Shown here one piece after another: positions 1,205-26,964 of a stretch of 32,234 nt of DNA. Every line of letters starts with the position of its first letter. Within the stretch, counting starts at the first letter, position 1. The translations under genes were made by a program, and so were the position numbers. The notes under the pieces are model-generated. The model saw only the letters and a list, made by a program, of their open reading frames with translations. It did no database searches and was not told where the DNA came from. The stretch comes from Gammaproteobacteria bacterium (GTDB lineage Bacteria; Pseudomonadota; Gammaproteobacteria; Pseudomonadales; Azotimanducaceae), in NCBI GenBank assembly GCA_028821125.1, contig JAPPHD010000176.1:1-32234 (forward strand), in the 5' to 3' direction.

Positions 1205-1521
1205 CAGCCCGTGGCGAAAGTCCGGCGTCGCACCGAGAGCGCCGATGCGCCCGGCTGACAAGGCGCGAGGAGCGAGAATATCAGTCATATTTCAGCGACG
1301 AGCAACGCAGTCAGGCGGGATGCATCGGGGTTCGAATGCCGGCGTAGTTTTGCCGCGGGTTGCTGGCAACTCGTGTTCACGGCTCATTTGCGAATGGCGG
1401 GATGCGGCCGCCTCCCAGGTGTAACGTCGGCTTCCGTCCGGCTTTGAAGATAGTTGCGCTTGTGAGCCGGGCAAGTCGGGGCAGGCTTCGCAGCAACCCA
1501 GTTTGTCCAGAGCGTTCTCCA
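1205..1521. other. 317-base gap inside the gsp operon
   Basis: All other gaps in this operon are overlaps or a few bases, so this gap is unusual. Open frames that cross it show no family features and are not counted as genes. It holds the palindromic element at 1255-1314. It may also carry an internal promoter for gspI-gspD, but no convincing -35/-10 pair was found. Confidence 0.6.
1255..1314. repeat. Intergenic palindromic element, CTGAC...GTCAG
   Basis: CTGAC at 1255-1259 is mirrored by GTCAG at 1310-1314. The centre is a perfect inverted repeat AATAT-CAGTC-ATATT at 1277-1291. The two internal flanks are not mirror images of each other but share GCGA/GAGC-rich sequence. This layout resembles dispersed intergenic repeats of Gammaproteobacteria with AAGGCGC and CAACGCAGTCAG ends. 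That resemblance is from memory and needs a genome-wide search. Confidence 0.45.
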
Positions 1522-4640: not shown

Positions 4641-5224
4641 ACGCGCTGGCACGCCTGTTCCAGGATTTCCGCGCCGAATTTTCCGTCAACGCGCGTCTGC
4701 GCGCCGGGGTTTGGTTGATCGCGGCTGTGGTGTTGTTCTACGTGGCACTCGTCCAGTCCGACCGGGTGACGGCAGCGTACGAGGAATTTGCCGCCGAAGC
4801 GGGACGGCTCGCACGGGCCGAGGGGCTGCTGGAACGCGAAGACTGGCCACAGTTGCTTGAAGCCGAGCGGGCCGCCAACCAGGCGCTCGAGGCTGCGTTC
4901 TGGAAGGCGGACACGGAGGGCCTGGCCCAGGCGCAGTTGCAGGCAGCGCTGGCGGGCATCGCCGGCCGGCTGGATCTGCGCGAAGTGCGGATTCAGCCGG
5001 GATTGATTCAGCCGGTGCCCGAGGTGCAAGGGGTATGGCGGGTCCAGGCGCAGTTCAGCGCCAGCTACGACTCCGGTGCGCAACTCCAGGTGCTGTACGC
5101 GCTGGCCACCCATCCGAACAAACTGGTCGTCGACCGGCTCGACATGGTGCGGGGAAGGGCGCGGCTGGTTGCGATCCTCTCGGCCTACTTCGTGGGCCTC
5201 GATGTCGAGGCGGGTTCGGAGTGA
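4637..5224 (+). CDS. gspM: Type II secretion inner-membrane protein GspM
   Basis: GspM is a bitopic inner-membrane protein that pairs with GspL. This 195-residue protein has a short cytoplasmic N-terminus, one membrane helix at about residues 24-41 (GVWLIAAVVLFYVALVQ), a periplasmic coiled coil (about 45-105), and a small ferredoxin-like domain to the end. It starts at a GTG that overlaps the gspL stop codon (GTGA), indicating coupling. Sequence similarity to classical GspM is not obvious by eye, so the name leans on topology, size and gene order. Confidence 0.75.
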   Translation: MNALARLFQDFRAEFSVNARLRAGVWLIAAVVLFYVALVQSDRVTAAYEEFAAEAGRLARAEGLLEREDWPQLLEAERAANQALEAAFWKADTEGLAQAQLQAALAGIAGRLDLREVRIQPGLIQPVPEVQGVWRVQAQFSASYDSGAQLQVLYALATHPNKLVVDRLDMVRGRARLVAILSAYFVGLDVEAGSE

Positions 5225-5228
5225 CGGC

Positions 5229-5768
5229 ATGGTGTCCTTTGCTGCAGACATGACCGGTTTGCGAGATGTCGCGGGGCGCTACCGCATGCCGCTGACGGCG
5301 GCCGCGGCTGCTTTCGGGATTGTGCTGGCTGCCGCGCTTGCCATTCCCGTGACCCTGCCGCATGCCGGCTCCTCCGGCGGCCGCGACGCGGCAATGGGCG
5401 CCTTGCCGGACGGTGCGTTGCAGGCGGAGGATCTGAGCGCCTTTCTCACCAGCAGCCGGTGGGGCGTGGTGCTGCAAGACATCATCGACGAGGAAGCCGC
5501 GGCCGCGGCGGCCGCGGCGCAGGCTGCCCTGGCAATCGAGATGACCCGGGAACTCGCGGAGATCGGTTTCGTCGGGCTCATGGTGGAATCCCGGGAATAC
5601 GCGGTGTTGCTGGTGATGCCGGATGGTAAAATCGCGCGCTTGGCCGGGGGTGATACACTGCCGGATGGCCGTACTTTGGTGTCTGTCACCGGAAACTCCC
5701 TCACGCTCGCTGGAAGCGAAGGTCAACAGGATGTGTTGCCCCTGTTTCCGAGGGTTCGCACGGAGTAG
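5229..5768 (+). CDS. gspC: GspC-like inner-membrane protein, HR domain only
   Basis: This is a 179-residue protein with one membrane segment at about residues 21-41, an Ala-rich linker (eight alanines in a row near residues 89-96, encoded by GCG/GCC repeats), and a compact C-terminal beta domain from about residue 110. The stretch VLLVMPDGKIARLAGGD and TLPDGRTLVSVTGNSLTLAG matches the pattern of a GspC homology region, which docks on the N0 domain of GspD. There is no PDZ or second C-terminal domain, so it is a short GspC (PilP is the closest alternative). It starts 4 bases after gspM and ends 6 bases before gspD, placing it next to its expected partner. Confidence 0.65.
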   Translation: MVSFAADMTGLRDVAGRYRMPLTAAAAAFGIVLAAALAIPVTLPHAGSSGGRDAAMGALPDGALQAEDLSAFLTSSRWGVVLQDIIDEEAAAAAAAAQAALAIEMTRELAEIGFVGLMVESREYAVLLVMPDGKIARLAGGDTLPDGRTLVSVTGNSLTLAGSEGQQDVLPLFPRVRTE

Positions 5769-5774
5769 AAGACG

Positions 5775-7991: not shown

Positions 7992-8684
7992 TCATTGCAT
8001 GTATTCGTCCAGCACTTCCCCGGTTGCCGCCGCGGCCCGGACCCTGCCGTTGTCAATCCACACCACCCGGTCGCACAGTTCACGGATGGTGGCCAGGTTG
8101 TGCGAAGCCAGGAGCACCGTGCGGTTCGACCGGATCAGGTCCTTGATCGCGGCGTTGGACTTGACCCGGAAATTCTGGTCCCCGACGCCCAGCACTTCGT
8201 CGATCAACAGTACGTCCGCTGTGGAGTGGAGGGCGCAGGAAAATCCCAGCCGGGCGCGCATCCCGGAAGAGTAGGTTGCGAGGGGCTCGTTGAAATGGCC
8301 TCCCAGATCCGCGAACGCCTCGATATCGGCGACCCGGTGCTCGGCGGCGTTTCTGTCCAATCCCAACAACATGCCACTGAGGATGGCGTTTTCGCGGCCG
8401 GATAGCTGCGGCAGGAAACCGACCTGCAGCGACAGCATCGACAGGTTGATTTCCTCCCGTGCGATGCTGCCCTGGTCCGGCTCGATGATTCCGGCGATGG
8501 CCTTCAGCAGCGTCGTCTTGCCGGCGCCGTTCCTGCCGACGATGCCGATGGTCTCGCCTGGATACACATCGAAACTCACGTCGGAGAGCGCCCAGTATTC
8601 GGTGGCGCCGCCGAGCAGGCGGCCCCGGCTGCGGTAGCAGACGCCGACCGAGCGCAGCGATACGACGGGGGCGTCAGTAGGCAA
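7992..8684 (-). CDS. wzt: Polysaccharide ABC transporter ATPase (Wzt/KpsT type)
   Basis: This is the ATPase that powers export of a finished lipid-linked polysaccharide across the inner membrane with its Wzm-type partner. In its 230 residues it has Walker A GRNGAGKT (50-57), the ABC signature YSSGMRARL (138-146), Walker B ending VLLIDE (158-163) and the switch His195 in LLASHN. The wording GIVGRNGAGKTTLLKAIAG and IDEVLGVGD is typical of O-antigen/teichoic-acid type exporters. There is no C-terminal carbohydrate-binding domain, so it is the short form. It begins 11 bases inside the end of the permease gene. Confidence 0.93.
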   Translation of the reverse strand: MPTDAPVVSLRSVGVCYRSRGRLLGGATEYWALSDVSFDVYPGETIGIVGRNGAGKTTLLKAIAGIIEPDQGSIAREEINLSMLSLQVGFLPQLSGRENAILSGMLLGLDRNAAEHRVADIEAFADLGGHFNEPLATYSSGMRARLGFSCALHSTADVLLIDEVLGVGDQNFRVKSNAAIKDLIRSNRTVLLASHNLATIRELCDRVVWIDNGRVRAAAATGEVLDEYMQ

Positions 8685-9435
8685 TTTTCGCGTACCGTGA
8701 TTCGTTCGCCCGCATCAGCGCAAGACCGGCCAGGCCCAAGACCGTGGCCAGCAGGAAAACGGCCGCGAGTTCCCCCCAGTCGGGGAACTGGTTGCGCAGC
8801 AGCACGGACCGGAGATTGTCGATCAGCAACGCCACCGGATTCAGTTCGAAAACGATCCGGTAGGGGGTCTGGAACGAGTTGATGTCATAGAAGATCCCCG
8901 ACATGAACAGCAGCGCACGCATGCCGTTCTCGATCAGTACCCTGAGGTCTGGCACAAAAGGCGTGATGGCGGCCACCAGCGCCGTAGTCCCGGCGATGAA
9001 GGCGCCCCCCACGGCCAGTACCGGTAACGCTGTAAACCAGGGGGCGGATGGATTGATGCCGTAAACCAGCAAGAACAGCAGCAGCACCGCCAGGACGACC
9101 CCGAACTTGGCGGAGTTCTTCAGCATGACCACCGCGGGAAAGAGGTACTTCGGCACGAATACCTGGTTGTAGAGGACGCGATTGGCCTGCAGCGTGTCGA
9201 CTCCCTGCATGACGGTTGACTGGAACCAGTGCCAGAACACCAGGCCCGTCAGCAGGAAAACCACGAAATCCTCGGTTCCCCGCTGGAACAGGATGCCGAA
9301 GACGAAGTAGAAAACCAGCATGTAGATCACTGGCTCGATGAGCCACCACAGGAAGCCCAGGTAGTAGCGCTGGGATTCCGCCTTCAGTTCGGCGTAGGTC
9401 TTGTACTGGATGATGTCCCTGATTCGCTGTTTCAT
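8674..9435 (-). CDS. wzm: Polysaccharide ABC transporter permease (Wzm/KpsM type)
   Basis: This is an ABC-2 type permease with 253 residues from the ATG at 9435 and about six membrane helices. Its N-terminus, MKQRIRDIIQYKTYAELKAE followed by SQRYYLGFLWWLIEP, is the classic opening of Wzm/TagG-like permeases. It ends in ANESRYAKIAY, also typical. The frame is open to 9630, but the upstream 65 residues look unlike a permease and are rejected. It precedes and overlaps the ATPase gene by 11 bases, forming a two-gene minus-strand operon divergent from the methyltransferase at 9722. Confidence 0.92.
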   Translation of the reverse strand: MKQRIRDIIQYKTYAELKAESQRYYLGFLWWLIEPVIYMLVFYFVFGILFQRGTEDFVVFLLTGLVFWHWFQSTVMQGVDTLQANRVLYNQVFVPKYLFPAVVMLKNSAKFGVVLAVLLLFLLVYGINPSAPWFTALPVLAVGGAFIAGTTALVAAITPFVPDLRVLIENGMRALLFMSGIFYDINSFQTPYRIVFELNPVALLIDNLRSVLLRNQFPDWGELAAVFLLATVLGLAGLALMRANESRYAKIAY

Positions 9436-9721
9436 TGCCTGTGTGCGCTGGGCGCCTCCTCGAGGAAGCAGTTTTTGAAGACGAAGCAACGGCTTCGGTA
9501 CGGTGCCGGCTGTCGCGGCCGATTGGCCGGAGCCGATGGTCCGGTCGGTTCCCGATGCAACATGACCCGATGCCCGGTGGACCCGTGTAACGGGATGGGG
9601 CTTGACGACTATACCGGATGCGCCCTTCAATGGAAGGCGGCGCTACGGGATGGCCGACGCGTATCGCCAGACGATTTCCTGGCCGCAACACGAACGATTC
9701 GGCATACCGACAGGAGGGAAT
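9436..9721. promoter_or_regulatory. Divergent intergenic region, wzm / methyltransferase
   Basis: This 286-base gap separates two divergent operons and so should carry promoters for both. TTGACG at 9602-9607 (+ strand) and TATAGT read on the minus strand at 9613-9608 are the only elements resembling sigma-70 hexamers; neither has a convincing partner. The right end carries AGGAGG at 9712-9717, a strong ribosome binding site for TTG 9722. Confidence 0.4.
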
Positions 9722-15515: not shown

Positions 15516-16292
15516 CTATTCGCCGGACGGAACGGCCCGAACCCGGAAGTGGCCGATCAACTGCTTGCCCCGGCTCGGCTCGACAAGATATACGGGATGG
15601 GCGTCCACGCGCGAAACAAGGTTCATCGTCTGCCGTTGGCTCAGGTTCGCCACGGCGAAGAGCTCACCCTGCCTCACGACCGTCCTCGCCCGGAGCGACC
15701 CGATGAAAATCTCGTAGGGCAAGGCGCTCAATTCGGAAAACCGGAACCAGAGAGCCGATTCACCGCTTGGCTGGACGTTGAATGGCTGGCCGACTCCGGT
15801 GGATGTTGGCCCCCAGCGGTCTACCTTTCCGAAGGGGGCGTCCGGCAAATGCGCAAGCGGCCCTTTTGGTTCCCCGGGGCGTCTTTCGATGATGCCGCCT
15901 TTGCGCACGTGGAGAAACGCGATCGCCGCCAGCTCACACTCGGTTCGGGACAGTTGCCACCCGTCGACGCGGCACAGGGCGCCCTCCTCGAAATCCTGCG
16001 CTATGCGTTTTCGTATGGCCGCCGAAAGGCCGTCTGCGGAGCTTCCGCGCGGGATCCCGTTGACGAGGCGTTCGAGTTCCTTGCCGTTGTCTGCCGATGC
16101 GCCTTGAACTTGCAGGTACTTTTCTCCCAGTTCAACGGAAAAGGCCCCTGCAGAAACGATCTCCCGCAGAGAAGGTTCCAGTACAAGCGGTTCGATCTCC
16201 TGTGCAGGGGCTCCGAAAACCTGCCAGGCTGCCGCGGCCCCTGCGGCGCCGCCGGCCAGCATGATGAACTGACGGCGGGTCTGTTCAGGCAT
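15516..16292 (-). CDS. Tat-signal protein, possible small subunit of the GMC oxidoreductase
   Basis: This 258-residue protein begins with a twin-arginine signal: TRRQFIMLAGG, then a short hydrophobic AAGAAAAWQVFG, with cleavage likely near residue 30 (GAPAQ). The first part (about 35-125) is helical with REIVSAGAF and two cysteines (ALCRVDGW and RTECELAA). It broadly resembles gluconate 2-dehydrogenase subunit 3 proteins, which are Tat-exported partners of GMC flavoproteins. The second half (about 140-258) is beta-rich and unrecognised. Its start overlaps the end of the upstream GMC gene by 8 bases, which supports a stable pair. The partnership is inference from this coupling and family precedent. 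Confidence 0.65.
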   Translation of the reverse strand: MPEQTRRQFIMLAGGAAGAAAAWQVFGAPAQEIEPLVLEPSLREIVSAGAFSVELGEKYLQVQGASADNGKELERLVNGIPRGSSADGLSAAIRKRIAQDFEEGALCRVDGWQLSRTECELAAIAFLHVRKGGIIERRPGEPKGPLAHLPDAPFGKVDRWGPTSTGVGQPFNVQPSGESALWFRFSELSALPYEIFIGSLRARTVVRQGELFAVANLSQRQTMNLVSRVDAHPVYLVEPSRGKQLIGHFRVRAVPSGE

Positions 16293-17766
16293 CGGCGATG
16301 CCCAATCTCCGGCGCAGATGCTCCGCGAGCCTGAGGGTCAGCGCTACGATGGTCAAGGTCGGGTTGGCGAACCCGAATGTCGGAAAGACCGATGAACCGG
16401 CAACGTAGAGATTGCCGACATCGTGACAGCGCAAACTCGGGTCAATCACACCGTCGTCCGGATTCCTGCTGATGCGTGTAGTACCCATCTGATGGGACTG
16501 ATAGGCTCCGGTGTAGGTGGCGGTTGCGGTTCTGGCGTTGACCCGGAACCTGCCCCCGGCCTTTCCGATCGCGCGCCCGAGAACTGTGCACAGCCGTTCG
16601 ACACAACTCATGTCCAATGGGTTGAGCTGCCAGTTCAACGAAACCCTCGGCAGACCCGAGGCGTCCAGCTCGTTGGTGAGTTCGATCCGGCTGTTCGGGT
16701 TGGGCGTGTTCTCCATTCTCAGCAGAACCCTGAATCGATTTTTTTCCGATCCGGCCACGTACTCCAACTGCCGCTCGACACCTTCGCCCAGAAGACCCAG
16801 GGGCTGACTGTCCCATCGATGAAAAATGAGGCCGAAATTCACCAGTTGCTGCTCCTCGAGTATTTCGTCCCGGAACGACAGGTGGGGCAGCACCCGAAAC
16901 TGCCGGCCGTCGTGGACCGCCTGGTGCAGGTGATACCTGTTGTTGAAGTCCAGCAGCGCAACGCCGATGGTCTTGCCCAGGTGATCCGAGAAGCATCTCC
17001 CAACGAAACCGCTGCTGTTTGCGACCCCCGAGGCGAGCAACACACGAGCGTTCTCCACGGCCCCCATGGCCAGTACATGACAATGCGCGGACACCCGCAG
17101 TCGCGATCCGTCCGGGGTTGCAAGCAGGCATCGGTCTACACTGCCGTCGGCAACCAGTACCTTGACCAGCGTTGCGTTCAACAGGCACTCGACGTTTTCA
17201 GCCGCTTCGATGTCACTTCGGTAGCGTACCCCGAACCGGGTTGGCGGACTGAACAGGAAACTCTTGTATGTCAGCTCGGCCGAGGCGCGTTGCGTCAACT
17301 CTCCGAACCCGAAATCCCTGTCGAAAGCCGCCAGCCCCAGGCCTCCAGTCGGTACTTCGCAGATGTCCAGCGCTTTCTCCAGGTAGGGATCCAATTCTCC
17401 GCGAGATAGGGGCCAGCCGCTCAGCGGTATGTGGCTGTGCGCCTGAAAATCATGGGGGTCAAGTGGGCGACACCATCCGCCCCAGTGATTTGTGGTGCCA
17501 CCGAAGTAGCGTAGCCGGGTAGCGGTGAGGTCATAAGGCAAACCGACGATCTTGCCCGCGAAGGGGTGGCCGGGTCCCCCCGGCGGACGCCCGAAGCCAC
17601 CCGCCTCGAACAAGCCTACTCGAGCGCTTTTGCGAGACAACGCCCTGGCCAGGGTTATGCCGGCCGCTCCGGCGCCATAGATGGCGACGTCATAAGACAG
17701 GTCTGCTGCGCCCCGCCACGCATCGTAGATCGTCAACCCGCCGCTCCGTACCCTGCGCATCCGCAT
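16285..17766 (-). CDS. GMC-family FAD-dependent oxidoreductase
   Basis: This 493-residue flavoprotein has the FAD dinucleotide motif VAIYGAGAAGITLA (GxGxxG at 31-36), a second FAD contact EAGG (55-58), and the GMC signature RYFGGTTNHWGGW (87-98). The C-terminal active-site block contains HQMGTTRIS (from His425), NLYVAGSSVFPTFGFANPT and a closing LTIVALTLRLAEHL helix, as in alcohol or sugar oxidoreductases of the glucose-methanol-choline family. It has no signal peptide of its own and may be exported with the Tat protein encoded downstream. Placed within a glycan cluster and divergent from manC, it may oxidise a sugar residue or a lipid-linked intermediate; the substrate is unknown. Confidence 0.88.
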   Translation of the reverse strand: MRMRRVRSGGLTIYDAWRGAADLSYDVAIYGAGAAGITLARALSRKSARVGLFEAGGFGRPPGGPGHPFAGKIVGLPYDLTATRLRYFGGTTNHWGGWCRPLDPHDFQAHSHIPLSGWPLSRGELDPYLEKALDICEVPTGGLGLAAFDRDFGFGELTQRASAELTYKSFLFSPPTRFGVRYRSDIEAAENVECLLNATLVKVLVADGSVDRCLLATPDGSRLRVSAHCHVLAMGAVENARVLLASGVANSSGFVGRCFSDHLGKTIGVALLDFNNRYHLHQAVHDGRQFRVLPHLSFRDEILEEQQLVNFGLIFHRWDSQPLGLLGEGVERQLEYVAGSEKNRFRVLLRMENTPNPNSRIELTNELDASGLPRVSLNWQLNPLDMSCVERLCTVLGRAIGKAGGRFRVNARTATATYTGAYQSHQMGTTRISRNPDDGVIDPSLRCHDVGNLYVAGSSVFPTFGFANPTLTIVALTLRLAEHLRRRLGIADA

Positions 17767-17936
17767 TCGAAGGGATCATCATACCCGCCCAGCCATGTCG
17801 TCGATCCGGAACGCGCTACAGATTGCTTTCGGCTTGTCCTACAATCGCGGCGCCATTTCGACGACAAGGTCATGTCGATGCGCCGCGACGCACCGCGCCG
17901 GCTCGGTCTTCCCTCGACCACCCGGCGGAAGCCCGT

Positions 17937-19352
17937 TTGAAACCGTTGGTACCGGTTATTCTGGCCGGCGGTGTCGGCAGCCGCCTTTGGCCGCTGTCCA
18001 GAGCGCTATTCTCGAAGCCGTTTCATGCCCTGTTCGGCGAACGCACTCTGTTGCAGAACACCGTTCTGCGGGCGCACAAGGCGACGCAACGGCGGCCGAT
18101 AATCGTTTGCAACGAAGACAACCGCTTTCTGGTCGCCGAGCAGTTGCGGTCTATCGGTGTTGCCTGGGAGCACATTGTCCTGGAGCCTGAAGGCCGAAAC
18201 ACCGCTCCGGCAATTGCGCTGGCCGCTCACATGGCGTTGGGCGACACCGATGATTCCCGGTTGCTCATCCTGCCTGCCGACCACCTTGTTGAAGACGAGG
18301 CGGGTTTTGTCGAGGCGGTCGAAATGGCGGCTGACGCGAGCGAGGGAGGGGCGGTAGTCACGTTCGGAGTCAGGCCGACCCGTCCCGAGACCGGGTACGG
18401 TTACATCGAACTGGAGGCGGAGGGGCGGCAGGGCGTTCAACCGATCAGGTCCTTTGTCGAAAAGCCCGATCAACAACGCGCCCGGGCTTTTTCAGACTCT
18501 GGACGGCATCTGTGGAACAGCGGCATGTTCCTGACCGATGCCCGAATTGCCTTGACAGAGATAGCAGCGCACAGCGCGCACATTGGGGAAGCGGTTGCCG
18601 CTTCGGTCCGTGAAGGCCGCTCCGACCTGGACTTCTTTCGCCCGAGCAATACGTTTCTGCAAAGCCCGGCCATCTCGTTTGACGTGGCGGTCATGGAGAA
18701 AACCGCTCGTGCAGCGGTACTGCCGGTCGACTTCGGCTGGAGCGACATCGGGTCCTGGGAATCGGTGCTGGAAGCGACGGGCGTCGATGGGCAGGGCAAT
18801 TGCTTCGCCGGGGACGTGCTGCCCCTGGATGTGGAAGACACGCTCATCCATGCGGACCACCGCTTGGTGAGCGCCATCGGCGTGGGCCGGCTGATCATCG
18901 TCGAAACCGCGGATGCGGTACTGGTCGCCGACCGCGGCCGCGCGCAGGATGTGACAAACCTGGTGGCGCGGCTGAAGGGTTCCGGCCGATCGGAACACCT
19001 CCTGCACCCGGAAGTGTTCCGTCCCTGGGGCAGTTACGAGGTCGTCGCACGCGGTGAGCGCTACCAGGCCAAGCGTCTCAGGATCAAGCCAGGCGCCAGA
19101 ATTTCGTTGCAGAAACACCGTCAGCGGGCGGAGCACTGGGTGGTTGTGCGGGGCGCCGCCGAGGTTACCCGGGATGACGAGATCTTCACCCTGCGCGAGA
19201 ACGAGAGCACCTACATCCCGATCGGCGTCAAGCACCGGCTTGGAAATGCCGGCAACCAGATGCTGGAGATTGTCGAAGTCCAGGTCGGCAGCTATCTGGG
19301 TGAAGACGACATTGTGCGCTTCGAGGACCGGTACGGCAGAACGACGGATTGA
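17937..19352 (+). CDS. manC: Mannose-1-phosphate guanylyltransferase / mannose-6-phosphate isomerase
   Basis: This bifunctional enzyme makes GDP-mannose from mannose-1-phosphate and can isomerise fructose-6-phosphate to mannose-6-phosphate. The N-terminal nucleotidyltransferase begins KPLVPVILAGGVGSRLWPLS, with VGSR where GTR or GSR variants are usual, and contains EPEGRNTAPAI, LPADH, FVEKPD and WNSGMFL. The C-terminal cupin (about 355-471) has FRPWGSYE, ISLQKHRQRAEHW and a YIPIGVKHRL segment, matching the type II isomerase domain (AlgA/ManC/CpsB). TTG 17937 gives 471 residues, the normal family length, and the usual short N-terminus; the frame opens at TTG 17823 without an in-frame ATG. It lies divergent from the GMC gene and supplies a precursor for this glycan cluster. 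Confidence 0.92.
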   Translation: MKPLVPVILAGGVGSRLWPLSRALFSKPFHALFGERTLLQNTVLRAHKATQRRPIIVCNEDNRFLVAEQLRSIGVAWEHIVLEPEGRNTAPAIALAAHMALGDTDDSRLLILPADHLVEDEAGFVEAVEMAADASEGGAVVTFGVRPTRPETGYGYIELEAEGRQGVQPIRSFVEKPDQQRARAFSDSGRHLWNSGMFLTDARIALTEIAAHSAHIGEAVAASVREGRSDLDFFRPSNTFLQSPAISFDVAVMEKTARAAVLPVDFGWSDIGSWESVLEATGVDGQGNCFAGDVLPLDVEDTLIHADHRLVSAIGVGRLIIVETADAVLVADRGRAQDVTNLVARLKGSGRSEHLLHPEVFRPWGSYEVVARGERYQAKRLRIKPGARISLQKHRQRAEHWVVVRGAAEVTRDDEIFTLRENESTYIPIGVKHRLGNAGNQMLEIVEVQVGSYLGEDDIVRFEDRYGRTTD

Positions 19353-19552: not shown

Positions 19553-20389
19553 TCAGCTCATTTGCGTTCCGGCTGCCCTGACGATCTCCCGGGAAGCTGC
19601 GCGATGAATGTCCAGATCGATCCGGTTGGCCGCCAGCAACTCCCGGTAGAGGTCGCCGCCAATTGCCTCCCTGATTCCGGCCAGCCGGTCGGACAGGGAC
19701 TCGCTCGACCGGTCGCTGGCATTCTGCCAGGCGGGCAGAACCTGAAAACCCGGAAAGTGAGGCGCAAGCCAGCGTTCCAGGGCGTGCATGGATTGATCGA
19801 ACAGTTCCACGACGCCGACGAAAGGCAACAGCTTCAGCGCCTTGAACGCCCGTTGCCGGAGCCGGTCCGGCGAACCCGGAACCGCGGCGGCCAGGCGCAC
19901 GGACGAGAAGTTCCGGGCCATGCTCTGCCTCTTCATCTCCAGCAAACCGCGCAGGTAGCCGGCAAGGTCGTTTTGCCCGGCCAGGGTTGTCGTCCTGTTG
20001 TGAAAACCGGATTCGAACCGTTTGCGCTGAAACAGGTAGCTCGACTGCAGCCGGATCACGGGATTGCGCACCATGATGATCGGAAAGACGCGGGTTGCCG
20101 GCAGTTTCGGAAGCGGCATGACCGCGGTGTGCGAAGACAGGACCAGAACCTCGGGATGCCCGGCGAGCCAGTCCTGCACCAGTTGCGCATTGGACCGGCC
20201 GGTGAGGATGGCGGCGGTGTTGGTGGGGCGTGGAAACTCCTCGCTGTGCCAACGGCCTTCCCCAAAGTTCTCCCTGAGAATGTGGTCGATGGACGAACCG
20301 GCGTTCTTGAAGAGATGGTAATGGAGAATGATCTTTCGGCAGTCGCCGGGGGGCGGCTTGCCGAACCATCCCAGCTTGTCGAGGATCAT
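19553..20389 (-). CDS. Sulfotransferase, copy B of a paralogous pair
   Basis: This 278-residue PAPS-dependent sulfotransferase starts at ATG 20389. The 5'-phosphosulfate loop is in IILHYHLFKNAGSSIDHIL, in the Sulfotransfer_2 style of carbohydrate sulfotransferases. The 3'-phosphate site is IIMVRNPVIRLQSSYL. It is closely similar over nearly its full length to the gene at 26101-26964, for example in the shared runs VLSSHTAVMPLPKLP and GQNDLAGYLRGLL. The frame is open to 20536, but that extension lies inside the 3' end of the giant gene and is unlike protein, so the later ATG, 14 bases after the giant gene's stop, is chosen. It is last in the minus-strand block. It probably sulfates the glycan made by the cluster. 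Confidence 0.85.
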   Translation of the reverse strand: MILDKLGWFGKPPPGDCRKIILHYHLFKNAGSSIDHILRENFGEGRWHSEEFPRPTNTAAILTGRSNAQLVQDWLAGHPEVLVLSSHTAVMPLPKLPATRVFPIIMVRNPVIRLQSSYLFQRKRFESGFHNRTTTLAGQNDLAGYLRGLLEMKRQSMARNFSSVRLAAAVPGSPDRLRQRAFKALKLLPFVGVVELFDQSMHALERWLAPHFPGFQVLPAWQNASDRSSESLSDRLAGIREAIGGDLYRELLAANRIDLDIHRAASREIVRAAGTQMS

Positions 20390-20403: not shown

Positions 20404-23400
20404 TTATTGAACGATCCGGGCGGCCATCGGGGCATCGCCGTTGAGGCAGAGTATTCTCTTGAGTTCCTCTGCCCCGGCTTCCAGGGTGTGGCGCTTGCGC
20501 ATCGCGTCGAGGCCGCCGGTGGAAAGCACTCGCCATAGGGCCTCATCGCAGTACGCTGCTTGCAGGTGCTTCACCCACCCGGCCTGGTCCTCGGCAATGA
20601 GGATGTCGCGCCCGTTCTCCAGACTCATGCCTTCGGCGGCGACCGGCGAGGCGACAACCGGCACGCCGTGGCACAGGCTCGAGACAACCTTGCCCTTGGC
20701 GCCGGCGCCGTACCGCAACGGTGCAACGGTCAGCCGGATGCGGTTGAACAGGCCGGCCAGATCCTCGACATAGCCGATCGTACGCACGCCCTCGGTCTCG
20801 CCGAGGTTCTCGACCTCGGCGGGCATCTGCGCACCGCCCAGGATCAACTCCGCGCCGGGCACGGCGGCATGGAAGTCCGGCCAGATTTCTCGAACGAAGT
20901 AAAGAACGGCATCCAGATTGGGCGGATGCAGGTAGTTGCCGAGAAAGGCCATGCCCTGGCGTTGGCTGAATTCCGTCTCGCCAGCACCGGGGATGTCGCG
21001 AATCAGCGGGAGGTGGAACACGTCGGTGTCGGGAACGGCCTCCTGAAGGAGGTTTTTTTCGTGGTCGCTGACCACGACTATGGCATCGGCCTTGCGAGCG
21101 AGCCGGATTTCGGTTCTTTTCGTGATGCGCGCCTGCTTTTTCAGTTTCTCCGACTGCTCCGTTTCCGCTTGCCGCGCCTCGCGGATGTGGTGCAGGTCGA
21201 CGGTGTGGAAGACGATGCGGGCGTTCGGGCAAAGCGTTCGCAACGTCGAAGCCAGTTCCTTGAATACGCCGACCCGGTGGACGAGCACAAAGTCGATGTC
21301 CTTGCCCGACTGTTTCAGATAGCTCCTGAGCGAGTCGACGTAGGGTGCGTACAGCACCTCGGTGCCGAGCTTCTGCAGGTCGTCGGTATAGGCGCCCCAG
21401 TAGTCGAGGTCGCGGTGAGCGGCGAAGGTGGATTTGATGCCCAGGCGCGCGAGCATGCGCACGAGGTTCAGGATGTCGACGGAGCCGGAATCGTGATCGG
21501 GCATGGGGGTGGCCCAGTCGATGACCAGCGCCCGGCCGGCGGCGGCCCGGTCCCGGGCGATATCCGGCCGGGTGGATGGGGCGAGATGGCGGGCCTCGAG
21601 CGTCTTGCGCCAGCGGCCGAGAAAGCGGACACGGTTTTCCGCCTGATAGCGCTTCTCGCCCTGGGACAGGTCGGTGCCGGATGTGGCGCCTTCGCTGTGG
21701 ACGAGCTTCGCGAAGGGCTGGTACAGGACCCGGTAGCCGGCTTCGCGAACGCGCATGGCGAGGTCGGTGTCTTCGTAGTACGCGCGAACGTAGTAACTGT
21801 CGAAACCGCCAAGTTCGCGCCACAACGCGAGTGGCAGCATGATGGCCGCGCCGCTGCAGTAGTCCGCATCGCGAACGTAGTTGTACTCCGGCTTGCGTGG
21901 GTCGTCGCCGCGGCCGTAGTTCGATGCCGAGCCGTCGGAGAAGACGATGCCGCCCGCTTCCTGAAGGCTGCCGTCGTCGAAATAGAGCTTTGCGCCCACC
22001 AGCCCCACATCGCCGTGCATTTCGAAGGTATCCGCCAGGGCGTCGATGGCGCCGTCCTGAACCAGGGTGTCGTTGTTCAGCAACAGGAGGTGGCGTCCCC
22101 GGGCCTGGTCCGCGCCCCGGTTGCACGATTGCAGGAAACCCAGGTTTTCGTCGTTGCGAATGTAGCGGATGCCGGGTAGCTCGGACAGCACCGCCCCGCT
22201 TTCGTCCTGAGAGCAGTCGTCCACGACGATGATTTCGATGGACCGCCCGTCGGTGATGGCGGCAAGGGACTTGAGGCAATGCAGGGTCGTCTGACAATTG
22301 CCGTAAACCGGGATCACGATCGAGATGTCGGGCGAATCCGGATACTCCGGCGATTTCAGCCTGATGGCGGCAGGCGCAACCGGATGGCGGTTTTCCACCG
22401 GCGCCACCTGCTTGGAGATCAGGGCTGCTTCGCCCCTATCGGCGCCTGCGGCGTACAAGGGATGGGCGTGCACGGGATTGACCGGGTGTTCGGCCACCTC
22501 CTCCACAGCGTCCCGAGTCGCCTGCAGAAACGCGTAACCGAAGCGCTGGTCGGGTTCGAGGTAAGCCCCTTCGCCCCATTCGTTCCAGGCGTTGATGAAC
22601 AGCAGCCGCTCGTCGGGCGTGCGCTCCTGAGCGAGGGTCCAGCGCATGGCGGAGCGCAGCCAGCGGCCGTAGCTCGAGGGCGAATGGCCCTCGAAAAGGT
22701 GCGCCTCGGTTCCCCTGCGCGGGGTGTTGTCCCAGCCCGGCATGACGCCGCGCATCTGCAGCCAGGGTTGGTCCGGTTGCTCTTCGCACTTCTCGGCGTA
22801 CTCGTCCCAGTCGAATACGAAGCCGCGGAATTCGGATTTCCCCGGGACGATGTGGGCGGTCACGTCCGTGGGCATGCCGGTGTGCCAGGGGAACTCTACC
22901 GCGGCTTCCATGCCGAAGGGCCTCGGGTCCAGGCTCTGGAAAGACTGGACCATGGCCACGAAGGGTTCGCTGATGCCGTTTTCGCGGCACCAGCCTTGCC
23001 ATCTTTCGACGGTCTCGGCCGCATCGGGAAGCAGTGCCGGCCGATAAACCAGGAGCAGCGGCCGGCCGTCGACGTGGATGTACCTGGGGTCCTCGAGAAA
23101 GCGTGAGACGTACCTGATGAATTCCAGGTCGTCTTCGGGCGCATGCTCCTGGCCGATGAGCAGGTCCTGTTCCCGCCCGTCCCAGCGCCGCGTCCAGTTC
23201 TCGTTTGCCCAGCAGAGGCAGAAGGGGAAGTCGATCGTGGAGTCGTTCAGGTAGTTCAGTATCGGTGTTTCCAGCAACCGGTGCCCGCCGAACCAGTAGA
23301 AATAGAAGCAGAAGCCACCGATGCCGTAGCGCCGGGCGATTTCCACCTGCCGGTGCTGGACCTTGGAGTCGCGGAGATCGTAGTGGCCCATGTCGATGGG

Positions 23401-25164
23401 GACCCGGGGCTGATAGTGCCCGTCGAACTGGGGCGTCGCCGCGCGTACGTTGGTCCACTCGGTGAACCCTTCTCCCCACCAGCGGTCGTTTTCCGGTATG
23501 GGGTGGAACTGGGGCAGATAGAACGCGATGAGCCGCACAGGGCCCTCGGCGGCCGGTTCGCCTCGAAACTCCGGCACGAAATGGGCCCGGGCGGTTGCGT
23601 CCGCGGTGTCTGAATCCGGTGCGGTGCGGTGCCTGGGCGGTGGGGTAGAAGTGGCCCTCAGCCAGTGACGCACGCGGCGGGGAATGAGGGAGCCTATCCA
23701 TATCGGTGCGTGCCTGCGGTAGAAAGGCAGCATGGCCTGAGCCGCCTTGCGGAACCGTCCGGTGAGAAGCCATCCGGCGATCTGGGCCAGGCGCATGGAC
23801 TTGCGGAACAGCCAGCCCAGTGCGAGCCTGGCTTCGCGCAGCGGCGCCGTCAGCCGCCAACTCGACGATTGCATGAGGGCGGCAATGCGGCTGTCCCGCT
23901 CGTTGACCGCACGCATCAGGGAATCCACCTGCAGCTCCCGTTCCGTGTTCGCTTCGTTGAGCGTCTCGGTCAGGCTGTCGATTTCGGCATCGCGTTCTTC
24001 GGCCTCTCCGGTCTGCCGGGTGATGACCTGGTTCAAGGCGTCGATTTCGGTATCGCGCCGTTCGATTTCGGCGATTCGCCGGGCAATGTCCTGATTCAGC
24101 GCCTGGATTTCGGCATCGCGCCGTTCGGCCGCTTCGGACTGTCGAACAATGGTCCGGTCCAGGGTTTCGAGATGCCCGCTCAGTTCGGAAAGCGTCCCTT
24201 CGAGATCCCGCACCCGGCCTCTCTCGGTTTGGAGATTGGTCGTCAGTTCATTGACTTTACCGCCCAGAATCCGCTCGTTCTGCCGCGCCGTTCTTCCGAC
24301 GAGCAGCGGGCGGCCGAAAACGGGGCCGAGCTCGTCGAGTCTCGCCCGGATTCTGTCCAGCGCTTCGAGGTCTGAAGACCGTTCGTCATCGACAGACCAC
24401 CGTGTCAGGATTTCATGGGTCTCGGTGATCCAGCGGACGTCGCGGGTGGCCGACTCGATTTCGAACCGCCGGTCCGCGTGATGGCGCAGGTCGGGCGTCA
24501 GAAATTCATCGATTTCCAGGTCGGCGGCGCTGGACAGTTTCGGCCAGGACACTTCCAGCCGCTCCCCGATGCGCGTGAGCACGCTGCGCCAGTCATCCAG
24601 CAACTGGTCGAAGCCGACGGCGACTCGCCGGCAATTGCGGCTGCCCGCCTCCGCATCGAGCACGTGCCGCAACCACAGCAGCATGCCTATCGAGGGGTCG
24701 ATGTCGTCCCTGCGTTTCAGCGACGCGGCGACATCTCGAGGATTTCTGACCGTCATCACCACCAGCGGCGTGGCCCCCACGGATTCGAGCGCCTTGGTCC
24801 AGAATTCCATCAGCAGGCAGAAGCGCGGATCCTTGACGACGAACAGCGGGCTGGACGGGAATTCCTCCTGCAGAAGTCGCCGGGCTTCCTGAAAGTACCT
24901 GTCGTGAAGCGGTGAGGTGTACCAGCCGGGATTGAGTGTTTCCCACTGGTCCCAATACGAACCTGCGGAAGCCAGGATCTCGTTGTTCAATTCGAAGATT
25001 CGTTGCGACTCCCAATGGCCGCGTTCGTTGCTCCGGCTGTCTGACTCCATGAGCACCTTGGGCAGGTCGCAGCCCGCGAGATTCAGGGTGCGGCTGAGCG
25101 CGGACGTACCGCTGCGGTGCATGCCGGCGATCAGGACCGCCTTCGACTGAAGCCTTGAGCTCAC
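20404..25164 (-). CDS. Giant fusion: sulfotransferase, coiled coil, WbsX-like, GT2 and GT4 domains
   Basis: This single frame of about 1586 residues carries, in order: a sulfotransferase (about 8-250) with phosphosulfate loop AVLIAGMHRSGTSALSR and VMTVRNPRDVAASL; a coiled coil (about 298-435) with repeated RDAEIQALNQ/RDTEIDALNQ; the spacer SSSWRLTAPLREA, common before glycosyltransferase modules; a WbsX-like domain (about 545-890) with FYLPQFHPIPENDRWWGEGF, CWANENW and FINAWNEWGEGAYLEPD; a family 2 transferase (about 946-1190) with IVIPVYGN, VVDDCSQDES, LLLNNDTLV and YYEDTDLAMR; and a family 4-like transferase (about 1213-1575) ending with RLTVAPLRYGAGAKGK. The start is GTG 25164, 14 bases after the upstream stop with AAGGCGG before it; ATG 25230 is possible but overlaps 53 bases and lacks a ribosome binding site. 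The protein probably extends and sulfates a polysaccharide. Confidence 0.88.
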   Translation of the reverse strand: MSSRLQSKAVLIAGMHRSGTSALSRTLNLAGCDLPKVLMESDSRSNERGHWESQRIFELNNEILASAGSYWDQWETLNPGWYTSPLHDRYFQEARRLLQEEFPSSPLFVVKDPRFCLLMEFWTKALESVGATPLVVMTVRNPRDVAASLKRRDDIDPSIGMLLWLRHVLDAEAGSRNCRRVAVGFDQLLDDWRSVLTRIGERLEVSWPKLSSAADLEIDEFLTPDLRHHADRRFEIESATRDVRWITETHEILTRWSVDDERSSDLEALDRIRARLDELGPVFGRPLLVGRTARQNERILGGKVNELTTNLQTERGRVRDLEGTLSELSGHLETLDRTIVRQSEAAERRDAEIQALNQDIARRIAEIERRDTEIDALNQVITRQTGEAEERDAEIDSLTETLNEANTERELQVDSLMRAVNERDSRIAALMQSSSWRLTAPLREARLALGWLFRKSMRLAQIAGWLLTGRFRKAAQAMLPFYRRHAPIWIGSLIPRRVRHWLRATSTPPPRHRTAPDSDTADATARAHFVPEFRGEPAAEGPVRLIAFYLPQFHPIPENDRWWGEGFTEWTNVRAATPQFDGHYQPRVPIDMGHYDLRDSKVQHRQVEIARRYGIGGFCFYFYWFGGHRLLETPILNYLNDSTIDFPFCLCWANENWTRRWDGREQDLLIGQEHAPEDDLEFIRYVSRFLEDPRYIHVDGRPLLLVYRPALLPDAAETVERWQGWCRENGISEPFVAMVQSFQSLDPRPFGMEAAVEFPWHTGMPTDVTAHIVPGKSEFRGFVFDWDEYAEKCEEQPDQPWLQMRGVMPGWDNTPRRGTEAHLFEGHSPSSYGRWLRSAMRWTLAQERTPDERLLFINAWNEWGEGAYLEPDQRFGYAFLQATRDAVEEVAEHPVNPVHAHPLYAAGADRGEAALISKQVAPVENRHPVAPAAIRLKSPEYPDSPDISIVIPVYGNCQTTLHCLKSLAAITDGRSIEIIVVDDCSQDESGAVLSELPGIRYIRNDENLGFLQSCNRGADQARGRHLLLLNNDTLVQDGAIDALADTFEMHGDVGLVGAKLYFDDGSLQEAGGIVFSDGSASNYGRGDDPRKPEYNYVRDADYCSGAAIMLPLALWRELGGFDSYYVRAYYEDTDLAMRVREAGYRVLYQPFAKLVHSEGATSGTDLSQGEKRYQAENRVRFLGRWRKTLEARHLAPSTRPDIARDRAAAGRALVIDWATPMPDHDSGSVDILNLVRMLARLGIKSTFAAHRDLDYWGAYTDDLQKLGTEVLYAPYVDSLRSYLKQSGKDIDFVLVHRVGVFKELASTLRTLCPNARIVFHTVDLHHIREARQAETEQSEKLKKQARITKRTEIRLARKADAIVVVSDHEKNLLQEAVPDTDVFHLPLIRDIPGAGETEFSQRQGMAFLGNYLHPPNLDAVLYFVREIWPDFHAAVPGAELILGGAQMPAEVENLGETEGVRTIGYVEDLAGLFNRIRLTVAPLRYGAGAKGKVVSSLCHGVPVVASPVAAEGMSLENGRDILIAEDQAGWVKHLQAAYCDEALWRVLSTGGLDAMRKRHTLEAGAEELKRILCLNGDAPMAARIVQ

Positions 25165-25177
25165 GTTGAAAACCGCC

Positions 25178-25966
25178 TTACCGGATTTCCGACGCGCCGT
25201 GCCCGACCGGCCGGCTTTCGTGGAGGTCATGGCCGTGCTCTGCCCAGACGGCCTCGACTTCGGCGAGGTTCAGCACCAGTTGACGGTTGTTCTTGAGTAT
25301 CTTGTTCGTGTTCGAGGCCAGCGGGCGATTGTCGATTTCCAGAAACGCCTGCAGGTCGTCCAGGGAGGTGGAACCGGGCGCGACGATGTCTTCGTAGGCG
25401 ATCGTGAAGTTGCGATGCCTGCCGTAAAGGCGGCTTGCTGCGCGTTGCCGCCCTTTTACGTCGTCAATGAAAGCCAGGAAATGCTCGATGTCGACGGTGA
25501 AAGGCGCTACCCGGGGTCGCTCTTCCTTTCGCCGCAGGAAGAGAACGCCGGTCTTTTCGACGACCCTGTGGGAAACGTATTGATCGATCAGGTTGCGCCT
25601 GATCAGGTGGATGACCCTGATATCCGTGTCGGCTGCCACGGCCTCTCGAACGGTCTTATAGGCAGGCAGGAAGACTTCGTCCGTCTTCAGCTTGAAACCG
25701 ACACAGCGCCGGCCCTGTGGGTTGAAAACGATGTCGTACAGGAAGGTTTTCGGCTCCCGGTCCCGATAGTCGCGCAACCGCCTTTCGAATCCTGGATCGG
25801 TCTTGCGCCTGCGTGCATAAGCGCCGAAAACGGTGGCGGGGCCCCCTTGAGCGAAAACCTCGTGATGGCAGAGAACTTGAGGGTGTGAGCCGATCAAGGT
25901 GCACAGCATCGTGCTGCCGCTGCGCGCGGCGCAACTGATCAGGAATTTGTCGTCTCGAAGATGCAT
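25178..25966 (-). CDS. Sulfotransferase (Stf0/NodH-like)
   Basis: This 262-residue protein starts at ATG 25966. The phosphosulfate-binding loop is FLISCAARSGSTMLCTLI, followed by GSHPQVLCHHEVF, the pattern seen in NodH/Stf0-like sulfotransferases. A VGFKLKTDEVF segment and the 3'-phosphate region VIHLIRRNLIDQYVSH also fit. The end has AEVEAVWAEHG. The frame is open to 26059 but the upstream residues show no family features. Unlike the pair at 19553 and 26101 it belongs to another sulfotransferase subgroup, so this block holds at least two chemistries or acceptors. It lies just upstream of the giant gene and is probably co-transcribed with it. Confidence 0.85.
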   Translation of the reverse strand: MHLRDDKFLISCAARSGSTMLCTLIGSHPQVLCHHEVFAQGGPATVFGAYARRRKTDPGFERRLRDYRDREPKTFLYDIVFNPQGRRCVGFKLKTDEVFLPAYKTVREAVAADTDIRVIHLIRRNLIDQYVSHRVVEKTGVLFLRRKEERPRVAPFTVDIEHFLAFIDDVKGRQRAASRLYGRHRNFTIAYEDIVAPGSTSLDDLQAFLEIDNRPLASNTNKILKNNRQLVLNLAEVEAVWAEHGHDLHESRPVGHGASEIR

Positions 25967-26100: not shown

Positions 26101-26964
26101 TCACCCCTGCGGTCTTGTTGGTTGGGCGCCGTCGGGGTATTGGTGCAAGCCGGGGCGCAAGGCCCCGCCAATCATCCTGGAAGCCGCTTCGTGCACTTCG
26201 ATGTCAAGGCGGTTGGCTTCCAGAATCTCGGCATAGAGACCTGCTCCGATTTCCCGGCGAATCTCGGCAAGGCGTTCAGACACCGGCTTCTCGGCCTGGT
26301 CGGAGGCGTTCTGCCAGGTTGGCAGAACTCGAAACGCCGGGAAATGAGGGGCGAGCCATAGCTCCATCCTTTTCATCGATTGCTCGAACATCTCTGTCAC
26401 CCCAACGAAGGGCAACACCTGCAGCGCCCTGAACGCCCGTTGCCTGATCTGTTTGACCGATCCGGGAACTGCGGCCGCCAGACGCACGGATGTGAAGTTT
26501 GTGGCCCTGCCCTGCTTCAACAACCCGCGCAGGTACCCCGCAAGGTCGTTCTGGCCCGCAAGCCGTGTGGCCCGATCTTCGAATCCGGATTCAAACCGTT
26601 GGCGTTGGAACAGGTAACTCGACTGCAGTCGGACGATTGGATTGCGCACCATGATGATGGGAAATATCTCGGTTTCGGGCAATTTCGGGAGCGGCATGAC
26701 GGCCGTATGGGAAGAAAGAACGACCACCTCGGGATGATTGGCGATCCATTTCTGGACCAACCGGGAGTTTGAGCGGTCGCTCAATATGGACTCGTGGTCG
26801 GGGGTGGTGGGAAATTCCTCGTTGTGCCACCGGAATCCTGTGAAATTGGTTTTCAGGATGTGGTCGATCGACGTGCCCGCGTTCTTGAAAACGTGGTAGT
26901 GGACAATGACTTTCCGAGCCACCTTGGAGCCCCAATTGCGAGGTTCAGACCGACGCCACGACAA
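26101..26964 (-). CDS. Sulfotransferase, copy A of a paralogous pair
   Basis: This 287-residue PAPS-dependent sulfotransferase has the phosphosulfate loop in VIVHYHVFKNAGTSIDHIL (about 19-37) and the 3'-phosphate site IIMVRNPIVRLQSSYL. It is strongly similar to the protein at 19553-20389, with long identical runs such as VLSSHTAVMPLPKLP, and has an extra C-terminal tail (RPGLHQYPDGAQPTRPQG). The start is unclear: TTG 26964 is the longest, GTG 26922 is a shorter choice closer to the conserved domain, and an ATG at 26983 is out of frame and soon stops. It is the first gene of the minus-strand sulfotransferase block. Confidence 0.82.
   Translation of the reverse strand: MSWRRSEPRNWGSKVARKVIVHYHVFKNAGTSIDHILKTNFTGFRWHNEEFPTTPDHESILSDRSNSRLVQKWIANHPEVVVLSSHTAVMPLPKLPETEIFPIIMVRNPIVRLQSSYLFQRQRFESGFEDRATRLAGQNDLAGYLRGLLKQGRATNFTSVRLAAAVPGSVKQIRQRAFRALQVLPFVGVTEMFEQSMKRMELWLAPHFPAFRVLPTWQNASDQAEKPVSERLAEIRREIGAGLYAEILEANRLDIEVHEAASRMIGGALRPGLHQYPDGAQPTRPQG

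Follow-up and report, generated by a model that had tools for sequence, protein, structure and literature searches.

The window, by which we mean the whole 32,234-nt stretch of gammaproteobacterial DNA analysed in this work, contains a giant gene read without interruption on the minus strand, either from a GTG (20404-25164) or from an ATG at 25230, which gives the longest open reading frame (Table 1). The plus-strand frame across 20404-25164 is interrupted by stops. An SD-like ggtaaggcgg is located upstream of the GTG, and homologues from the same genus can start near this point; residues of the giant protein are numbered here from the ATG. From the N- to the C-terminus, the protein begins with a sulfotransferase (ST) of the PAPS type, continues with a coiled coil that has 21-residue repeats and with a helical segment that is conserved, and ends in WbsX, GT2, and GT4-like modules.

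Table 1. Features of the giant gene and its surroundings in the window; residues are counted from the ATG at 25230.
Feature	Residues	Position	Strand	Basis or remark
Wzt-like ABC ATPase, without Wzt_C		7992..8684	-	Profile search
Wzm-like ABC-2 permease		8674..9630	-	Pfam
ManC (GDP-mannose) gene		17823..19352	+	Pfam; near the giant gene also in L095, L096, L098
ST_C, sulfotransferase-like gene downstream of giant gene		19553..20389	-	ORF; resembles ST_A
Giant-protein gene		20404..25164	-	GTG start, 1586 aa; longest ORF from ATG 25230, 1608 aa
GT4-like module	1222-1594	20449..21567	-	Pfam; NCBIfam
GT2 module	967-1215	21586..22332	-	Pfam; NND and ED motifs present
WbsX domain, GH99-like fold	567-905	22516..23532	-	Pfam; Foldseek
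NEWGE, catalytic-type glutamates	E884, E887	22570..22581	-	43/43 aligned sequences, window included
SxSWRxTxPLR motif and helical segment	~455-525	23656..23868	-	Gap-free in three same-genus relatives
Coiled coil	287-453	23872..24372	-	AF2 single helix, ~25 nm if straight; self-similarity at periods 21 and 14
Three 63-nt (21-aa, three-heptad) tandem units inside coiled coil		23980..24170		Nucleotide repeat
Sulfotransferase domain	29-285	24376..25146	-	Pfam Sulfotransfer_3; AF2 and Foldseek; profile match to TPST and SULT1A1
3'-phosphate-binding motif RNPRDVAAS	162-170	24721..24747	-	R162, S170 in 29/29; P164 in 26/29
5'-phosphosulfate-binding motif GMHRSGTS	36-43	25102..25125	-	Alignment of 29 sequences
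ST_B, sulfotransferase gene directly upstream of giant gene		25178..25966	-	ORF can begin at 26059
ST_A, sulfotransferase gene		26101..26964	-	Sulfotransfer_2 (Pfam)

This one-frame composition, already proposed in the initial annotation, is confirmed by Pfam-A matches and recurs elsewhere, since the same domain order in one frame is found in L003, L004/L014, and L015, which represent other genomes of the genus and a Desulfofustis genome. The assembly that contains the window has 193 contigs, of which the window is one, and separate genes could in principle have been fused by an assembly or frame error; however, because one-frame homologues keep the same order in independent assemblies, and the ST domains of same-genus relatives align without gaps, we regard the probability of such an artefact as negligible. 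Nor is the architecture common, as the exact ST-coiled coil-WbsX-GT2-GT4 order is rare: a class-wide draw of 274 genomes, from which all 36 ST-family matches besides that of the window were retrieved, contained a fused WbsX in 0/36 of these other ST regions. In phage and plasmid collections, no record covering 80% of the giant protein was found.

The giant gene is flanked by three other sulfotransferase or sulfotransferase-like genes. ST_B matches Sulfotransfer_3 at 26.4 bits, slightly below the cut-off of 27, and the same neighbour is present in L014/L096 and L095; ST_C has no Pfam-A match of its own, and its position is kept in L095 and L098. The Wzm/Wzt exporter is encoded ~11 kb from the giant gene, and an APS kinase, for PAPS supply, is present.

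The ST domain is recognized by Sulfotransfer_3 at aa 32-230 (30.0 bits, cut-off 27). The PAPS-binding residues, which the initial annotation had proposed to check, are intact in both motifs: seven of the eight positions of GMHRSGTS are invariant among 29 aligned sequences (window included), with R39, G41, T42, and S43 in 29/29 and S40 in 27/29. Judging from these motifs and the modelled fold, the domain is probably a PAPS-dependent sulfotransferase. Its AF2 model is closest by Foldseek to tyrosylprotein sulfotransferases with PAP (E 5e-6 to 9e-5), at low TM-scores of 0.4-0.5 depending on the target, the query having included the long helix. TPST-1/2, the closest solved structures, have the RSGT and KDP motifs in common with the ST, but the acceptor expected here would be a glycan; the nearest modelled fold is uninformative on the sugar acceptor. 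The same fold similarity would fit an ST that acts on a lipid-linked primer, a first adaptor sugar, or a protein instead of the finished chain. We consider this very improbable, as a long variable spacer from membrane-proximal glycosyltransferases would seem needless for a primer-modifying enzyme.

The segment that follows the ST is predicted by AF2 as a single helix over residues 287-453, with pLDDT only 50-60 past about residue 400. At the nucleotide level, it contains three copies of 65 nt each, spaced 63 nt; at the protein level, self-identity at period 21 is 0.258, compared with a maximum of 0.206 in 2000 shuffles, each scored at its own best period in the range 5-44. A home-made heptad score, which also flags globular stretches and served solely to separate coiled-coil STs from the others, is only modestly above shuffles (11/500 reach the value of the window). 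With the ST (aa 29-285) ahead of the predicted helix, a modifying enzyme sits at the far, N-terminal tip of the putative coiled coil. When three homologues from the same genus are aligned, no gap falls in the ST, the SWR/helical segment, or WbsX, and GT2 has three gap columns; in the coiled coil, there are 13-38 gap columns at an identity of only 30-38%, so that nearly all length change among close relatives falls in it. Its anchor-to-anchor length is 136, 151, 104, and 129 residues in the window and the three relatives, and the differences (+15, -32, and -7) are not heptad-exact steps. The spacer role of the WbdD type suggested in the initial annotation is favoured by this comparison, as the length varies between gap-free ST and WbsX domains and a linkage to wzm-wzt is seen (below), while the action as a molecular ruler is still to be read as a proposal.

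The SxSWRxTxPLR motif after the coiled coil recurs in several of the ST and WbsX proteins compared. The accompanying helical segment is predicted at low confidence and is possibly membrane-associated.

The next domain matches WbsX (PF14307) at 439.8 bits (cut-off 25.1). Foldseek relates it to GH99 (E 3e-12, identity 12-15%), within the GH99/GH71 glycosidase fold, and its NEWGE motif lines up with GH99 NEWHE in a profile alignment, so the domain combines the GH99 fold with both catalytic-type glutamates. For this reason, the Pfam name 'Glycosyltransferase WbsX' was not taken at face value, and of the three glycan-building domains originally proposed, the GT2 and GT4-like modules stand but WbsX is no proven transferase. 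GH99 endo-alpha-mannosidases/mannanases have the same fold and NEWxE glutamates, yet WbsX is located within a putative glycan synthase. These similarities would also suit a protein in which WbsX trims or transfers the lipid-linked glycan and itself, rather than the ST, sets chain length or branching. Six ST-coiled coil-GT2-GT4 proteins without WbsX in the class-wide draw argue that the layout does not need this domain, and wzm-wzt linkage also occurs without it; we therefore hold such a role of WbsX to be improbable. The C-terminal part is matched by Glycos_transf_2 at aa 970-1091 (83.2 bits) and Glyco_trans_1_4 at aa 1427-1560 (58.9 bits), the latter module also by an NCBIfam model of an XrtA-system glycosyltransferase, under cut-off. 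Both modules presumably polymerise the chain.

The relation to the exporter was followed at two scales. In the class-wide draw, Wzm and Wzt are encoded together within a ~20-kb stretch (10 kb each way) for 10/20 coiled-coil STs, compared with 0/16 other STs (p = 0.0008), a coiled-coil ST being one with at least 48 scored residues within 250 after the ST, a threshold picked after data inspection. Half of the coiled-coil STs in this draw have no nearby pair. At the genome level, Wzm is found in 19/20 genomes with a coiled-coil ST and in 98/254 others, and in 6/9 of the genomes whose STs lack a coiled coil. Of 20 ST-plus-WbsX loci, eight have wzm-wzt directly ahead of the ST gene. In L150, wzm and wzt are followed by an ST/coiled-coil gene (354 aa, exact heptad repeats), a GT4/GT2 gene (739 aa), and two GT4 genes, an order like that of O9a with the ST in the place of WbdD.

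In the clade of the giant protein, the exporter is 96 kb off in G008 and on a separate contig in G006, and no Wzm-Wzt pair was seen at the loci L014, L015, L017, L095-L098, and L104-L106. Two genomes of the genus, G001 and G005, yielded no copy of the giant protein, and they encode another ST-family protein (L107, L109) ~130 bp or less from a Wzm-Wzt pair. A co-occurrence of the giant protein and Wzm within the genus (5/5 versus 1/4, p = 0.048) was withdrawn because the search took only close relatives of the window's Wzm, and a profile finds Wzm-Wzt in G001 and G005 too.

Wzt_C, the cap-sensing domain, is an O9a-type feature and does not define the whole class of coiled-coil terminators. It is present in 8/10 Wzts picked for scanning from ST loci. 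In nine of the ten class-wide linked Wzts, the protein ends no more than 25 residues past the ATPase part, leaving no room for it, which rules it out as a general companion of coiled-coil STs; the tenth (L160) has a Wzt_C match under cut-off. With these counts, and with no Wzt_C in the Wzt of the window by profile search, the giant protein is not classed as an O9a-type member.

WbsX proteins without an N-terminal ST (n=11 scanned) carry other domains at that end: four methyltransferases above cut-off, one weak methyltransferase, one sulfatase-fold domain, one PIG-L plus GT2, one DUF4915, and three stretches without a match. At least 62 coiled-coil-like residues precede WbsX in 10/11 of them by the rough score.

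These observations bear on the possibility that the ST sulfates internal residues during synthesis, with the coiled coil as a scaffold near the polymerase that counts nothing. The three flanking sulfotransferase(-like) genes, two of them conserved in relatives, suggest that the glycan is heavily sulfated; Cobetia marina offers a known case of a sulfated capsule that has an ABC exporter (PMC11766843), and most linked Wzts of the class-wide sample are without the cap-sensing domain. However, internal sulfation predicts neither methyltransferases and other enzymes at the same end nor a coiled coil in which the length variation is concentrated, and we rate it as rather unlikely, though the most credible of the alternatives.

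Several known proteins offer points of comparison. WbbB of K. pneumoniae O12 joins polymerase and terminator in one protein, as the giant protein would, but its terminator is a Kdo transferase and its glycosyltransferase families differ. In WbdD of E. coli O9a and K. pneumoniae O3, a coiled-coil ruler carries the terminator, and an amphipathic helix lies close to the membrane (PMC11231755); WbdD is a kinase-methyltransferase with a separate polymerase, WbdA, whereas the ST protein bears its own glycosyltransferases. Another example is ORF6 of K. pneumoniae O7, which comprises a methyltransferase-kinase, a CBM, a coiled coil, and two GT2 domains (PMC11231755). It resembles the giant protein in having an N-terminal modifying enzyme, a central coiled coil, and C-terminal glycosyltransferases in one polypeptide, and some of its orthologues stop after the coiled coil, like the STs L150 and L094. 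In contrast, the O7 terminator is a methyl-phosphate, no WbsX is among the ORF6 modules described, and the word 'sulfotransferase' is absent from the main text of that paper. In Aeromonas salmonicida, a 216-aa sulfotransferase-domain protein, ORF19, is encoded between wzt and wbbB and was left unexplained by the authors, who found no sulfate in the O-antigen (PMC4483657). There, too, a sulfotransferase gene directly follows wzt in an ABC-type O-antigen cluster, but that cluster also holds a WbbB-type protein.

We propose, with confidence that is evenly balanced, that the giant protein acts at the membrane as a terminator-ruler-polymerase comparable to WbdD and WbbB for an ABC-exported surface polysaccharide, with the ST as terminator. 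Synthesis of the polysaccharide would take place in the cytoplasm on a lipid carrier, and the ABC transporter would export it. Chain elongation would be the task of the membrane-held WbsX-GT2-GT4 part, and the coiled coil would position the ST up to ~25 nm away, so that sulfate from PAPS would be added to the terminal sugar only once the non-reducing end gets that far. The capped chain would stop growing and be handed to Wzm/Wzt; the cap may double as an export signal in related loci with Wzt_C, but it would not do so in the locus of the window. The ST is better viewed as a possible terminator of the chain than as the general coupling of sulfation to synthesis that was first proposed; coupling and ruler action are both putative.

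In this assessment, we counted coiled-coil length variation, interchangeable N-terminal enzymes, wzm-wzt linkage, Wzt_C in chosen loci, the L150 order, and the APS kinase in favour of the terminator. Counted against it were the remote exporter in the clade, the mostly absent Wzt_C class-wide, the adjoining sulfotransferase genes, the TPST-like fold, non-heptad length differences, coiled-coil STs without a nearby pair, and the occurrence of non-coiled-coil STs in Wzm genomes too.

In the ruler-terminators described so far, the cap is a methyl, phospho-methyl, or Kdo group (PMC11231755). In the literature searched, no published sulfotransferase terminator was found, and a mention in a 2020 JBC O-antigen review is possible; the layout resembles known chain-measuring and capping proteins, with sulfate as the likely cap, undescribed in that literature. 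More tentatively than the mechanism itself, we suggest that sulfate forms a class of terminator chemistry so far overlooked, that a family of coiled-coil STs, either fused to glycan polymerases and wzm-wzt or encoded next to them, caps ABC-exported bacterial polysaccharides with a single sulfate, that length is set by the coiled coil, that Wzt_C reads the cap in some loci, and that the chassis takes interchangeable caps. As methyltransferases and possibly sulfatase-fold enzymes are placed on the same kind of chassis, the ruler may be a general platform for such caps. The idea is directly testable, because natural homologues vary in coiled-coil length and a split ST/coiled-coil version exists in Cereibacter sphaeroides, a laboratory species, in a region that also has a GH99-like gene and an ABC permease (L094); Dyella flava (L087) and Massilia eburnea (L028) are other culturable carriers. 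If true, a sulfate cap would be new chemistry among ruler-terminators, and since one sulfate per chain would easily be overlooked in repeat-unit analysis, it might explain otherwise enigmatic sulfotransferase genes next to wzt, ORF19 of A. salmonicida being one example.

The giant gene lies on the minus strand, where the longest open reading frame (20404-25230, 1608 aa) starts with ATG. Position 25164, the end coordinate chosen in the initial annotation, coincides with a GTG start codon of this gene; because an SD-like sequence is located 5' of it and relatives can begin nearby, the 1586-aa product starting there is the likelier one. Residue numbers in this work count from the ATG. Pfam found the domains in one frame, in the order Sulfotransfer_3 (the sulfotransferase, ST), WbsX, GT2, and GT4-like. 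In the AlphaFold2 model (16 sequences; mean pLDDT 75.9), the ST domain is well folded.

The ST domain matches profiles of tyrosylprotein sulfotransferase (1.8e-6) and aryl sulfotransferase (5.3e-6), and its best Foldseek matches are TPSTs, several with PAP bound. G36, M37, H38, R39, G41, T42, and S43 show no variation across the 29 aligned sequences, window included, nor do N68, G71, E74, K133, P135, R162, S170, and R174; the residues to be checked for PAPS binding (R39, G41, T42, S43, R162, and S170) are thus intact throughout. In terms of the sulfotransferase family, GMHRSGTS is the 5'-PSB motif and RNPRDVAAS the 3'-PB motif.

The repeated units noticed in the coiled coil are borne out by three 63-nt copies and by self-similarity at 21 residues exceeding all 2000 shuffles. 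Residues 287-453 are predicted to form a single helix, ~25 nm if straight, with pLDDT of 50-60 past ~residue 400. When the window protein was compared with those of three relatives (L003, L004, and L005, the last cut within GT4), the ST (64-71% identity), the SWR/helical segment (66-78%), and WbsX (75-81%) aligned without gaps, GT2 had 3 gap columns and two linkers 0-5, whereas the coiled coil had 13-38 at 30-38% identity, a pattern that favors a spacer role for it. Against Desulfofustis, the ST is again gap-free (41% identity), while the coiled coil has 19% identity and 50 gap columns; in this comparison, gap columns also appear within the SWR/helical segment (18), a linker (42), WbsX (36), and GT2 (23). 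Anchor-to-anchor lengths of the coiled coil are 136, 151, 104, and 129. Among proteins bearing the SWR motif (SxSWRxTxPLR), the distance to it from the ST end ranges from ~120 (L087) to 460 residues (L067).

The WbsX domain was modeled with a mean pLDDT of 89.1, and GH99 enzymes make up most of its top Foldseek matches (best E 3e-12, identity 12-15%). E884 and E887, which align with the GH99 NEWHE motif, are kept in 43 of 43 aligned sequences. The GT2 and GT4-like pair resembles one annotated plasmid glycosyltransferase, e.g., in Azospirillum argentinense (40% identity over 964-1594).

The fusion is real and recurrent across genomes. Five of nine same-genus genomes carry the giant protein; it is complete in three of them (G000, G006, and G008) and truncated at a contig end in the other two (G002 and G007). 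Scanning of genome contigs gave at least 578 confirmed candidates, the best 80 of which were taken as loci. Among these 80, ST and WbsX share one frame in 18 and are adjacent genes in two (L048 and L076); L006 and L017 end before reaching an ST. Local phmmer found all four domains in two of the 80, L014, whose protein is identical to that of G006, and L015 (Desulfofustis). Of 274 genomes drawn from across the class, 29 had an ST of the giant-protein family at E <= 1e-20, with at most nine candidates scored per genome. All 36 matches besides the window's own were examined: none had a fused WbsX, and six regions are ST-coiled-coil-GT2-GT4 (L146, L147, L151, L152, L155, and L166). Since only two of the best 80 loci are complete and fused WbsX is absent from these 36 matches, the exact four-domain order is rare, with combinatorial component parts, yet it recurs in other genomes (G006/L014, G008, and L015). 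In L142 and L161, family STs lie mid-frame in large frames (aa 428-682 and 338-527), with no coiled coil nearby.

The N-terminal head of WbsX proteins appears to be interchangeable. Eleven non-ST N-termini of such proteins were also scanned for domains. Methyltransferases were found over the cut-off in four and weakly in one, PIG-L plus GT2 in one, DUF4915 in one, and a sulfatase fold in one (L060, a Methanoperedenaceae archaeon); three gave no domain match. By a rough score, at least 62 coiled-coil-like residues separate head and WbsX in 10 of the 11 (just 29 in L062). The archaeal protein (L060:6024-12896, 2291 aa) has Wzm-Wzt upstream, and its head may add a further kind of cap to this chassis. 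Six ST proteins lacking a WbsX match (L007-L012, some partial) carry RgpF (one), GT2 (two), a methyltransferase (one), or no domain beyond ST (two). A split version occurs in Cereibacter sphaeroides, with a GH99-like gene and an ABC permease nearby.

Wzm plus Wzt, the ABC-transporter permease and ATPase, were found in the stretch examined for 10 of 20 ST loci versus 13 of 60 others among the best 80, and directly upstream of the ST gene in 8 of the 20 (L016, L025, L028, L033, L048, L076, L085, and L087), using profiles derived from those same 80 loci, with the L076 Wzm resting on a separate result. Class-wide, the pair lay inside the ~20-kb stretch for 10/20 coiled-coil STs versus 0/16 other STs (p = 0.0008), and Wzm was present in 19/20 genomes with a coiled-coil ST versus 98/254 remaining (p = 5e-7), or 17/20 versus 86/254 at a stricter cut-off (p = 9e-6); these statistics count two contigs of ~3 kb (L147 and L165) and take genomes as independent, some of which share genus or family. 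Wzm also occurs in 6/9 genomes whose family ST has no coiled coil near it, so at the level of genomes the association is not confined to coiled-coil STs. In the same-genus search, the giant protein was not found in G001 and G005, where another family ST protein (L107 and L109) lies ~130 bp or less from a Wzm-Wzt pair; G004 has a family ST protein (L108) and no such pair in the stretch examined. Wzt_C, the cap-sensing domain, is present in 8/10 Wzts hand-picked from ST loci, whereas 9/10 class-wide linked Wzts stop within 25 residues past the ATPase part; L160, the remaining one, has a Wzt_C match below the cut-off. In L150, wzm and wzt come first, followed by a 354-aa ST that contains exact heptad repeats and has the SWR motif at its end, and after it by a GT4/GT2 protein and two GT4s. 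Separately, L160:7582-15390 is a row of Wzm, Wzt, ST/coiled coil, Sulfotransfer_2, a sulfatase-fold protein, and GT2.

In the window, the wzm-wzt pair, whose Wzt is short, is 11 kb from the giant gene. The distance is 96 kb in G008, the pair is on a separate contig in G006, and none was found in the other stretches examined around full-architecture genes. Instead, the genes conserved right next to it are additional sulfotransferases and manC. The connection with ABC export therefore rests more on the wider ST family than on the window's clade. For the same reasons, the ST may alternatively sulfate internal residues of the glycan. Four sulfotransferase units, the giant gene's ST included, are consecutive in the window; ST_A and ST_C look like paralogues, and the window genome has 21 Sulfotransfer_3 matches, many within frames of 560-814 aa. 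The type II secretion (T2SS) run beside Wzt/Wzm recalls the Aeromonas salmonicida O-antigen cluster, which is described as having S-layer T2SS genes between wzm and wzt (PMC4483657).

Features of the window beyond the giant gene
Feature	Position	Strand	Remark
Tandem repeat, 25-bp unit	529-663		5.6 copies, 91% matches; no evident gene there
Type II secretion run (pseudopilin-like, T2SS K, secretin)	1360-7847	+	directly beside Wzt/Wzm genes
GMC oxidoreductase gene and small partner with TAT-like signal start	15516-17766	-	within glycan region
Sulfotransferase(-like) gene ST_C	19553-20389	-	flanks giant gene
Sulfotransferase(-like) gene ST_B	25178-25966	-	flanks giant gene
Sulfotransferase(-like) gene ST_A	26101-26964	-	flanks giant gene

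A similar layout is known from the WbdD/WbbB class. In the systems described by Kelly et al. 2024, a coiled-coil ruler carries the terminator at its distal end, and the polymerase modules are supplied either in cis or in trans; the chemistries are methyl, methyl-phosphate, and Kdo, and the word 'sulfotransferase' is absent from the main text (PMC11231755). In A. salmonicida, a gene encoding a sulfotransferase domain is reported to lie between wzt and wbbB, where its presence was left unexplained (PMC4483657). No proposal of a sulfotransferase terminator was found in the open-access literature searched. As the exporter evidence is mixed in the window clade, and terminal chemistry and length control are predictions, membership in the class is putative; the giant protein most likely acts like the WbdD/WbbB class, with its sulfotransferase as the candidate terminator.
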